NCBI GenBank assembly: GCA_903905455.1
Contig: CAIVGN010000127.1
Coordinates: forward strand, 1-64,000
Source: an uncultured Archangium sp.
Lineage (GTDB): Bacteria; Myxococcota; Myxococcia; Myxococcales; Myxococcaceae
Direction: 5' to 3'
Length of the DNA: 64,000 nucleotides
The position numbers and the translations under genes were made by a program. Shown here in pieces: positions 8,151 through 11,409 of the stretch (position 1 is the first letter of the stretch; the number at the start of each line of letters is the position of its first letter). The notes beneath the pieces were generated by a model. The model was not told the DNA's origin and did no database searches. It saw only the letters and a program-made list of their open reading frames with translations.

Positions 8151-9257
8151 TCAGCGCAGCGGCAGTCGCACGGTGAAGGTGCTGCCTTCGCCCGGCGCGC
8201 TGACCGCGTTCACCTGGCCTCCGTGGGCGAGCACGATCATCCGCGTGATGGCCAGGCCCAGCCCGATGCTGCGCTCTGCGTGGGTGCGCTTCGCGTCACC
8301 GTGCACGTAGGCGGCGTACAGCCCCTTCATCAGCTCGACGGAGATGCCGGCGCCACGGTCGCTGACCTCGAGCACCACGTCGGGCCCCTCGTGTCGCACG
8401 GCCACCAGCACCTCGGCGCCGTCGGGGGAGTGCTGCACGGCATTGTTCACGAGGTTGATGATCACCTGCTGCAGCTTCGACTTGTCGACCATCGCCCGTG
8501 GGAGCCCGGGGCCCAGCTCCAGCTGCACGCGCATGGAGCGGCGCCGCACCAACGACTCCACCATCGCCACCGCGCGAGCCACCGCGTCGCCCAGGTCCAC
8601 CGACGCGAGGTCGAGTCGCAGTTGGCCCGCCTCGATCAACGCCGTGTCGAGGAAGGACTCGATGAGGTCGCGCATCAGGTCGGCCGCCTCGCAAATGCCG
8701 CGCAGCGAATCGGCGCTCTCTTCCTGGAGCGTCGGCCCGAGCGCTTCCTGGAGGAACAGGGCATTGGCCGCGATGGCCGTCAGCGGCGAGCGGAGATCGT
8801 GCGCGGCCATGCCCAGGAACTGGTCCTTGAGTCGCCCCAGGCGCGCGAGCTCGGCGAGCGACTGCTGGAGCGCCCGCTCCCGGGTCGAGAGTTCCTGGTT
8901 GAGCGTCAGCAACTCGCGTCGCAGCGTCTCCTGGTCGACCGGGTCGATGCTCCCGAACACCACGGTCCCCGCGGCGATGGGCAGGAACGAGGCGCGGTAC
9001 GTCTGCGGGAGCCCGGTGAACGCCATGACGTTGATGTTCCGCGAGGCGAAGCTGCGCGCGAGCACCGTCGCGTTCAGCTCGCGCTCGAAGGTCGCCAGCA
9101 ACGTCGAGAACACCACCCCCTGGAGCGGCCGGCCGAACAGCACCTGGGTGTGCACGTTGGATTCCACCACGCGGTCGGCGTCGTCGAGCAGCAGGTACAG
9201 CGCCGGCGCGTCGCCTCGCACCACCGACGCCAGGACCCGGTCGAGTTCGTCATTCAT
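8151..9257 (-). CDS. Soluble PAS-like sensor histidine kinase
   Basis: Autophosphorylating kinase of 368 residues with no transmembrane segment. Residues 15-100 look like a PAS-type sensor (YLLLDDADRVVESN), residues 105-145 a coiled-coil linker, then the HisKA H-box (MAAHDLRSPLT, His153), and a HATPase_c domain with N-box (NLVNNAVQHSP), DRGAGIS and GLGLAI. The ATG at 9257 is one base after the stop of the B12-binding protein gene, so both are translated from one mRNA. No response regulator is adjacent. It is probably the output partner of the cobalamin protein; light or B12 status would be the input (inference). Confidence 0.9.
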   Translation of the reverse strand: MNDELDRVLASVVRGDAPALYLLLDDADRVVESNVHTQVLFGRPLQGVVFSTLLATFERELNATVLARSFASRNINVMAFTGLPQTYRASFLPIAAGTVVFGSIDPVDQETLRRELLTLNQELSTRERALQQSLAELARLGRLKDQFLGMAAHDLRSPLTAIAANALFLQEALGPTLQEESADSLRGICEAADLMRDLIESFLDTALIEAGQLRLDLASVDLGDAVARAVAMVESLVRRRSMRVQLELGPGLPRAMVDKSKLQQVIINLVNNAVQHSPDGAEVLVAVRHEGPDVVLEVSDRGAGISVELMKGLYAAYVHGDAKRTHAERSIGLGLAITRMIVLAHGGQVNAVSAPGEGSTFTVRLPLR

Positions 9258-9258
9258 C

Positions 9259-9900
9259 TCAGGGCTCCCAACGAGCAACGAGGGCATCGAGCTCCGCGAG
9301 CGACGACACGCGCTGGACCCCGGGCACGGCCAGGAAGTCCGCCGCCCGGCCGTCCGAGAGCGCTTGCCCACCGACGATGATGCGCAGCTTCGGCAGGGCG
9401 GCGCGGGCCTGCCGCACCGCACGCAGCGCCGCGGGGAGGTTGTCGACGATGGTCACGGAGATCGCCACCAGGTCCGGAGGCTGCGCCGCGAGCATCGAGG
9501 CCAGCGCGTCAGCAGGCGTGTTGGCGCCCAGGAAATGGACCGCCCAGCCCGCGGCCTCGAGCGTGTCGGCGACGATGCGGCCACCGACCTGGTGGTACTC
9601 CTCGGCGGCGCACGAGACGATCGCGCGGCGCCCGTTGGGCTCACGCTCCAGCACCCGGGGAAACACGAGCCGCAGCATGTCCTCGGTGATCAAGGTGGCG
9701 AGGTGCTCCACGGCCACCGAGAGTTCACCCGAATGCCAGCGGTCACCGACCCTGTACAGGCATGCCTGGAAGAGCTGCTCGTACAATTCCCGCAGCGTCG
9801 CGCCCCCGTCGAGCAGGCGCTGGACGTCGTCGCGACAGGCCCGGCGATCGCCCCCGATGAGGTGCGCCAGGTACTCCTCCACGGCGCGGGGAGCGATCAC
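9259..9900 (-). CDS. Stand-alone photosensory-type B12-binding protein (CarH-like)
   Basis: A 213-residue protein made of a helical cap and a Rossmann cobalamin-binding domain, without the MerR DNA-binding domain of CarH. The cap has W55 followed by nine residues and E65-H66, the Wx9EH signature of adenosylcobalamin photoreceptors. The B12 motif is ExHxxG (E101, H103, G106), then exactly 41 residues to SxT, then 26 to GG, matching the MerR-type B12 signature rather than the DxHxxG form of B12-dependent enzymes. His103 would ligate cobalt. Start GTG at 9900, 21 bases after the upstream lipoprotein stop. The next gene is a histidine kinase, suggesting light- or B12-gated kinase control. Confidence 0.88.
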   Translation of the reverse strand: MIAPRAVEEYLAHLIGGDRRACRDDVQRLLDGGATLRELYEQLFQACLYRVGDRWHSGELSVAVEHLATLITEDMLRLVFPRVLEREPNGRRAIVSCAAEEYHQVGGRIVADTLEAAGWAVHFLGANTPADALASMLAAQPPDLVAISVTIVDNLPAALRAVRQARAALPKLRIIVGGQALSDGRAADFLAVPGVQRVSSLAELDALVARWEP

Positions 9901-9921: not shown

Positions 9922-11409
9922 TCAGGGGCAAACCGACTTGCGCACCGGGACCCGCGTGCGTTCGTGGTGTCGGAGCTCCGAGCCACTACTGGAAGCGTTC
10001 ACGTTGAGCGTGTGCAGCGCGGTGCCGTCGGGCCGTGAGAGGAACGCCAACCCCTCCTGCTCGCCGGTGGTGGCGATGGCAAAGAGCCGCAGCACGGTCC
10101 CGGTCTCGAGGTTCACCTTGAACAGCGACTTCGTGGCGTCATCGCTCGCGAGGTAGAGGGCGCCTTCGTAGATCTTTCCGCCCTGGATGCGGCCGACCAT
10201 CACCCCCGGCGCAGGGTGTAGCGGCAGACTCGCGGCGAGAGTGACAGCTGGCAGCGAGAAGAGGTTGAGCTGCGTGGTGGGGTCCCACTCGGCGAAGATG
10301 GCCTGGGAAGCGGGGCCGTTGATCGCCACCCACGGTACGCCCTTGGTCTGCAGGGCCTGGGGAAGCGCGTACTCGCTGCCCGACGAGAGCGACTGCGGGT
10401 CGAAGAGCACCAGCTTCGGGCTCAGGTACCCCTGGCGACCGTCCTCGAGGGGCGCGTAGAGCTTGCCGTTCCACACGTCGATGTCGCCGATGTGGTCGCT
10501 GCCGCCGAGCGCGAGGAGCGTGGGGATCGCAAAGTTGCTCACCTGCTGCCGCGCGAAAGAGAGGTCGGTGCGCTCGAGGCTCACGGTGCCGCTGAAGAAC
10601 CAGCTGGTGCCATCGCTCGCCACGCCTTGCCCCCGGGTCAACGCGGCGGTCCCGGCGAAGGCGTCGAGGCTGCGCTCGACCCACGCCTCGTCGTCGACCT
10701 GGCGGATGAAGCGGTCGACCGCGTCGTCGACGGTCAACGGCGTGCGCCCGGGGAGGAGCTGGGTCACCACCGCGCGCACCTCGTTGAGCGACACGGAGCT
10801 GAGCGCCCGCGTCGCCGTCGCCACCGGGTAGGCCGGGAGCGAAGTGCCGTTGCCGGGCACCGCGTCGGCGTCGAGCGAGAGCAACAACACCAGCGCCTTC
10901 TCGAGCTCCGCGGAGTGGGTGCAGGTGCCGGGCGTCACCAACTGCCAGGGCGAGAGCCGCGGCGCGCCGGGCACCGGGCGGAAGGTGAGGTCGGCGACGA
11001 CGAAGGTGAGCTGCTCGCCGGCGACGTAGGTGAAGCCACCGGTGGCGTCGGTGAGACCGCTGCGCAGGGAGCTCGTGTAGCGAACGCCCGCGAGCCCGCC
11101 GGGAAGCGGACCTTCGCCGCCGATCAACACGCCGTGGAGCAGCGTGCCGGCGTCGGCGATCGTTCCCGCGTCGGCGATCGTTCCCGCGTCGGTGATCGTA
11201 CCCGCGTCGGTGATCATTCCTGCGTCGGTGATCATTCCTGCGTCGGTGATCATTCCTGCGTCGATGGACGATCCTGCGTCGGCGAGCGTGCCCCCGTCGA
11301 GCGCGACCGATCCATCCGGTGCACCCTCGCCCGCGTCGCCGACCGCAGAGACCTCGGGCCCACACGCACTGAGCAGCAACACGAACCCGGCGATCAAAGA
11401 ACGCGACAT
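9922..11409 (-). CDS. Lipoprotein with Asp-Ala-Gly repeats and a beta-propeller-like C-terminus
   Basis: A 495-residue predicted outer-membrane lipoprotein. The signal peptide ends LLLSACGP (lipobox Cys16). Residues 40-90 are a low-complexity linker of six-residue units (T-D-A-G-M-I and variants) encoded by an 18-bp tandem array. Residues 95-150 resemble a carboxypeptidase-regulatory-like/Big fold. The rest contains repeated beta-strand motifs with W and D residues (GDIDVWNGKLYAPLED) suggestive of a beta-propeller. No enzyme motif is visible. It lies upstream of the B12 protein on the same strand with 21 bases between, so a shared transcript is possible. Confidence 0.75.
   Translation of the reverse strand: MSRSLIAGFVLLLSACGPEVSAVGDAGEGAPDGSVALDGGTLADAGSSIDAGMITDAGMITDAGMITDAGTITDAGTIADAGTIADAGTLLHGVLIGGEGPLPGGLAGVRYTSSLRSGLTDATGGFTYVAGEQLTFVVADLTFRPVPGAPRLSPWQLVTPGTCTHSAELEKALVLLLSLDADAVPGNGTSLPAYPVATATRALSSVSLNEVRAVVTQLLPGRTPLTVDDAVDRFIRQVDDEAWVERSLDAFAGTAALTRGQGVASDGTSWFFSGTVSLERTDLSFARQQVSNFAIPTLLALGGSDHIGDIDVWNGKLYAPLEDGRQGYLSPKLVLFDPQSLSSGSEYALPQALQTKGVPWVAINGPASQAIFAEWDPTTQLNLFSLPAVTLAASLPLHPAPGVMVGRIQGGKIYEGALYLASDDATKSLFKVNLETGTVLRLFAIATTGEQEGLAFLSRPDGTALHTLNVNASSSGSELRHHERTRVPVRKSVCP
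11150..11293. repeat. 18-bp tandem repeat inside lipoprotein gene
   Basis: Eight adjacent 18-base units based on GCGTCGGTGATCATTCCT, the last two degenerate. Three central units (11204-11257) are identical. The array is in frame and encodes the DAG-rich linker, so copy-number change would lengthen or shorten the linker without a frameshift. Confidence 0.9.

Follow-up and report, generated by a model that had tools for sequence, protein, structure and literature searches.

B12-dependent photosensors, sensors that combine a bilin with B12, and the genomic neighbourhood of B12-binding proteins and globins are already known. According to the available parts of the cited papers, light removes the adenosyl group in these relatives and alters their structure or assembly (PMC11796333, PMC10979010), and a photocobilin changes the activity of a separate enzyme domain in trans in a light-dependent manner (PMC10979010). 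The CarH-type B12 motif spans the range E/DxHx2Gx41SxTx22-27GG (PMC8156234, in part), and Wx9EH is given as a further CarH mark in the available text of PMC9304148. The SignatureFinder set for light-responsive cobalamin-binding domains (CBDs) consists of GxxW, EH, GxxH, and GxxxP (PMC11796333, in part). Clusters of a B12-binding protein, a globin, and a bilin reductase occur mostly in Myxococcales, and the RGMC motif marks the BBAG-2 globins; the accessible portion of the paper that describes both names no kinase partner of the BBAG-2 cluster (PMC10151467).

Our literature search, whose coverage did not extend to the photoglobin paper, found no pairing of a kinase with a B12 sensor protein. 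That paper reportedly discusses the signalling neighbours of photoglobin, and part of the cassette described below may be in print.

The P0001-P0002 locus

The window analysed here is a stretch of 64,000 nucleotides from an uncultured Archangium sp. (contig CAIVGN010000127.1). On its reverse strand, positions 9259..9900 encode P0001, a stand-alone CBD protein of 213 residues with a GTG start, in which Pfam finds B12-binding_2 (residues 8-73, E 2.3e-14) and B12-binding (residues 92-182, E 4.6e-18) and no other domain. The helix bundle carries W55-H56-x8-E65-H66, and the Rossmann part carries E101xH103xxG106, GANTP (125-129), SVT (148-150), and GG (177-178). The preliminary description had given a light-sensor motif with fixed spacing in a stand-alone protein, and a script reproduced it exactly: W55, E65-H66, E101-x-H103-x-x-G106, 41 residues to S148-V-T150, and 26 to G177G178, all inside the published ranges, with both the CarH-type motif and Wx9EH present. 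The reported lack of a DNA-binding domain also holds, as the stop-to-stop frame comprises 220 residues, the CBD helices already start near residue 8, and Pfam detects no HTH. Three of the four SignatureFinder elements are present (GDRW, EH, and GANTP), and EEYH stands at the place of GxxH. Because the glycine of GxxH is also absent from 14 of the 16 myxobacterial MerR-fused CarH/CarA rows whose motif was parsed, we do not count this failure as proof against light sensing; a strict SignatureFinder screen would miss P0001. An AlphaFold model of P0001 alone, from the single sequence, was poor (mean pLDDT 56.5) and was left out of the interpretation.

The window genome contains 15 places that match PF02310, two of which carry Wx9EH: P0001 and a MerR-fused CarH homologue on contig C65. 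This distribution bears on a different function, in which P0001 would signal to the kinase whether cobalamin is present or what its redox state is (adenosylcobalamin supply, oxygen) and light would be of minor importance in nature. The same anatomy would serve such a sensor, the genome has a cobalamin adenosyltransferase, and AerR-type B12 proteins are stand-alone co-regulators of a partner in the available text of PMC9144470. However, Wx9EH marks light-responsive CBDs in the literature (PMC11796333 and PMC9304148, both in part). Of the 15 B12-binding places, 13 lack it and, besides P0001, the CarH homologue alone carries it, so that we regard a cobalamin-state sensor as unlikely.

The CBD gene is followed by that of P0002 (8151..9257, reverse strand), a soluble histidine kinase of 368 residues; the junction reads TGA, one base, ATG. 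P0002 comprises a sensor-like region (residues ~1-112), a linker helix, HisKA (E 3.7e-12), and HATPase_c (E 1.8e-23), and the phosphoacceptor H153 and the N and G boxes of a two-component sensor kinase are all there. Hydropathy suggests no membrane helix. The earlier assignment of a soluble kinase one base away is thus borne out, while its 'PAS-like' label is still a guess: residues 1-112 give no Pfam match to a PAS domain at E 0.1. Among 195 genomes of the phylum this N-terminus matches only itself, and it has no match in plasmids. No response regulator was found beside the pair. Upstream of P0001, on the same strand, lies a gene for a putative secreted protein with DAG-rich repeats (9922-11409) that ends ~21 bases before the CBD start and whose product has no Pfam match; it might be co-transcribed with the CBD gene.

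The convergent diguanylate cyclase (DGC) noted before is P0003 (6983..8146, forward strand), a GAF-GGDEF protein with a GGEEF motif (GGDEF E 7.6e-39) whose gene ends 4 bases from the kinase stop. It could be P0003 that P0001 controls, instead of or besides the kinase, in the way of a photocobilin with its DGC. The gene lies only 4 bases beyond the kinase, AbPcob and SasPcob alter the activity of an isolated DGC domain in the accessible part of PMC10979010, and on Ilyobacter polytropus pILYOP01 (L068, 2527-4570) a CBD gene overlaps a GGDEF gene of the same orientation. P0003, however, is encoded on the opposite strand, and its 74% orthologue in the congener G069 stands without equivalents of the CBD and kinase genes, P0003 being the one part of the window locus with a counterpart in that stretch. 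Control of the cyclase is accordingly improbable in our estimate, and P0003 is probably not part of the P0001-P0002 pair.

Family placement of P0001

The best solved relatives of P0001 by sequence are SasPcob (8j2w/8j2x, E 4e-23), CtMerR (8jbs, E 4e-20), and AbPcob (8j2y, E 1e-17), with TtCarH (5c8a, E 2e-9) behind them. A response to light has been shown for these solved relatives (PMC10979010, PMC11796333). The best NCBIfam model is CarH (E 1.9e-16), at a score far below the cut-off (60 of 400 bits). Models of NCBIfam corrinoid families match as well (MtgC, E 3.5e-8), and with the shared layout of B12-binding_2 and B12-binding these matches would suit a corrinoid carrier of a methyltransferase system that lies beside a kinase by chance. 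Against this stand the better CarH match, the presence of Wx9EH, the lack of any methyltransferase family match in the four neighbouring gene products scanned, and the recurrence of kinase neighbours around such CBDs; a carrier role seems to us a very poor prospect.

With P0001 as the query, 86 of the 195 genomes of the phylum gave a match at or below E 1e-15, and the top matches, with 42-46% identity, were stand-alone proteins of ~220 residues from genomes of the same family. No close relative was found, the best identity being about 41-46%, and a scan of genome contigs from other phyla returned one weak match. The CBD-kinase pair was not found in five genomes of the same genus: G071 lacks any match, and in the remaining four the loci read, which are L054-L056 and L113 and cover every match except another one in G070, encode MerR-fused CarH types.

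A tree of 64 CBDs sets the MerR-fused proteins, together with one further row, L052, apart on one side (support 100/99), and the window CBD groups with the globin-linked CBDs. This latter grouping has support of 90/84 after removal of 17 rows, three of them CarA-like and the others long or unplaced. A grouping of P0001 with CarH is not the best tree; the AU test does not reject it (p 0.30 and 0.31), and the local P0001 motif GDRWHSGELSVAVEH reads CarH-like. Because of these two observations we grade the placement of P0001 on the photocobilin and BBAG-2-associated side, rather than with CarH, as probable and not settled. The former designation 'CarH-type' therefore survives as far as the light-sensor B12 signature goes, with three of four SignatureFinder elements and H56 at the bis-His position; the nearest family is that of the photocobilin/BBAG-2-associated CBDs, albeit with the AU values given above.

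The residue that follows the motif tryptophan differs between these groups. It is glutamine (WQ) in all 16 globin-paired CBDs and histidine (WH) in 13 of the 14 MerR-fused CBDs with the motif, and the direct CBD-kinase pairs that have no globin show WH in the window (H56) and WV in G155, a genome of the same order and another family. In TtCarH, H132 forms the bis-His light state, and the equivalent residues of CtMerR, SasPcob, and AbDPcob are R, Q, and Y, respectively (PMC11796333, in part). As H56 occupies this position, P0001 could use CarH-type light chemistry, judging by its sequence. WH is no rule for globin-free pairs since G155 has WV.

Kinase genes beside cobalamin-binding domains

We read the neighbourhoods of 66 loci, hand-picked from the matches together with the window and hence not a random sample, and removed L100 (the place of L040) and L107 (the place of L050) as duplicates before counting. 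A kinase domain lies within 1.6 kb of 19 of the 27 non-MerR CBD rows without a detected globin, compared with none of the 17 MerR-fused CarH/CarA rows (Fisher p 1.6e-6, with rows that are not independent, include many orthologues, and represent about five separate arrangements). In some of the 27 rows the CBD is preceded by an N-terminal extension, possibly a diverged globin. The 19 rows consist of 11 in one convergent arrangement, five in one divergent arrangement, the window, G155, and a locus of G156 (L048); the eight rows without a kinase neighbour are L041, L043, L047, L049, L052, L057, L068, and L106. The association of CBD and kinase thus recurs in other loci and is not seen around the CarH genes read, which agrees with the link between B12 protein and kinase that had been proposed for the window.

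Several arrangements were recorded in their own right. A second group of stand-alone CBDs converges on a kinase gene encoded on the other strand, in L045, L046, L083, L084, L085, L091, L092, and L094-L097, and the residue after their tryptophan varies (H, C, A). Another group lies head-to-head with a kinase gene and has no globin (L044, L074, L075, L076, L082). Paired MerR-fused CBDs, one with and one without Wx9EH, occur in L109, L110, and L111 as adjoining CarH and CarA-like genes. On a Streptomyces xanthophaeus plasmid (L066, 3358-6442) a photocobilin-like gene stands between PP2C phosphatase and STAS genes, in agreement with the neighbours in the photocobilin paper.

Four more plasmid-record CBDs have a detected globin in the same chain, and in one of these (L064) a kinase is next. 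On Azospirillum plasmids a globin-CBD fusion is followed directly by a kinase in all three loci read (L064, L118, L119; eight Azospirillum records matched), and the linker and core of these kinases are ~40% identical to the window kinase. A profile of the Azospirillum partner kinases ranks P0002 1st of 74 with the linker helix and 60th of 73 without it. We also compared the P0002 N-terminus with the PAS-like domain of the Myxococcaceae cassette kinases described below by hhalign, which gave a local probability of 46%, mostly in the linker. Both comparisons show a resemblance for the linker alone, and we do not claim homology of these two regions.

The cassette of the Myxococcaceae has the order CBD, bilin-type globin (BBAG-2), hybrid kinase, and second kinase; the family name is applied to these loci on account of their likeness to published Myxococcales systems. 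A kinase lies downstream of all 16 globin-paired CBDs read from this GTDB family, directly after the globin in 15 of them; in these 15 it carries a PAS-like stretch and a receiver domain, and a further kinase usually comes next. At the 16th locus, L040, a ferredoxin-dependent bilin reductase (PF05996, E 1.9e-30) is inserted between globin and kinase. This locus (G146 contig 612, 1280-6864) holds CBD, globin, bilin reductase, and two consecutive kinases, which makes it a bilin cluster of the pre-2 type with kinases of its own. The globin of L024 has the RGMC motif. In L078 (G119) and L079 (G130) a bilin-type globin is present, and the CBD profile finds no CBD in the stretch.

The preliminary description had called the window pair an unusual two-component photoreceptor. 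Given how common the CBD-globin-kinase cassette is in Myxococcaceae, that wording was too strong, and the unusual feature of the pair is its missing bilin arm. Profile lists of the 195 genomes show a globin in 61 and heme oxygenase in 71, with both in 60 of the 61 globin genomes, and neither in the window genome or its five congeners. Heme oxygenase (PF01126) and globin were not found in the window genome, nor a globin in the P0001 chain or next door; cobalamin adenosyltransferase (PF01923) is present. The window shares with the cassette a same-strand soluble kinase after the CBD, and its genome lacks the bilin globin and heme oxygenase.

A second such pair occurs in G155 (L039), where the gene of a 208-residue CBD runs in the same direction as that of a soluble kinase and overlaps its beginning; if the chosen GTG start holds, the overlap is 28 bases and the kinase has 380 residues. 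This CBD has, by eye, all four SignatureFinder elements (GERW, EH, GERH, and GSDTP), its kinase is 31% identical to P0002 over residues 22-365, and neither the globin list nor the heme oxygenase list of the 195 genomes has G155 among its positives. Two genomes, those of the window and G155, thus show a direct, bilin-free CBD-kinase pair. The two may share an origin, which the AU test does not reject (p 0.20).

Proposed mechanism

We think the chances somewhat better than even that P0001 and P0002 form a two-gene, B12-only light-sensing unit related to photocobilin-kinase systems, with cobalamin binding, light response, and the effect on the kinase all predicted. From its motif, P0001 would bind adenosylcobalamin base-off through H103 in the dark, with W55, E65, and H66 surrounding the adenosyl group. 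Green light would break the Co-C bond so that the adenosyl group leaves, and H56, at the position of the TtCarH bis-His adduct, or E65 could take the free cobalt face. By analogy with CarH and the photocobilins, the lit CBD is expected to change its shape or oligomer state. P0001 would then act in trans on P0002, most likely on the N-terminal region and linker helix, and set the autophosphorylation of H153, as gene coupling and the recurring CBD-kinase neighbours suggest. For P0001 we infer adenosylcobalamin binding, the light response, the contact with P0002, and the direction of the effect. The pair would be kin to the Myxococcaceae cassette of CBD, bilin globin, and kinase, stripped of the globin in a genome without heme oxygenase for the bilin.

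More tentatively, these loci may represent a class of two-component photoreceptors whose light-sensing chromophore, adenosylcobalamin, is bound by a small protein of its own acting on a soluble kinase, in the form of the full cassette and in a bilin-free form (window, G155). The histidine of the window at the bis-His position, as opposed to glutamine in every globin-paired CBD read, might then reflect a switch between B12 plus bilin and B12 alone within one sensor family; we hold this broader proposal to be possible rather than probable. If true, B12 light sensing would reach histidine kinases through a detachable sensor subunit, and the phosphorelay would join the known outputs, transcription and cyclic-di-GMP. 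A natural series with and without the globin lets the contribution of the bilin to B12 photochemistry be tested, and a two-protein green-light kinase switch would serve optogenetics.

Comparison with known systems

AerR/PpaA (SCHIC) co-regulators resemble P0001 as stand-alone B12-binding proteins that act on a partner, but the AerR partner in the available text of PMC9144470 is the regulator CrtJ and not a kinase. CarH (TtCarH, MxCarH) shares with P0001 E/DxHx2Gx41SxTx22-27GG, Wx9EH, and WH; P0001 differs in having no MerR DNA-binding domain and in falling on a separate branch in the best trees. The BBAG-2 or pre-2 clusters of Myxococcales pair the gene of a B12-binding protein with that of a bilin globin in genomes that also encode heme oxygenase (PMC10151467, in part), and kinases follow, as seen here. 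The window genome, by contrast, has neither globin nor heme oxygenase, and the kinase comes directly after the CBD. The photocobilins SasPcob and AbDPcob are the closest solved sequences, with a CBD that likewise has the W, EH, and His ligand, and their stand-alone forms act on partners in trans, which parallels the proposal for P0001 (PMC10979010, in part). Their chain also includes a biliverdin-binding globin, which P0001 does not have, and the position after the tryptophan, which is Q or Y in photocobilins according to the accessible part of PMC11796333, is H in P0001.
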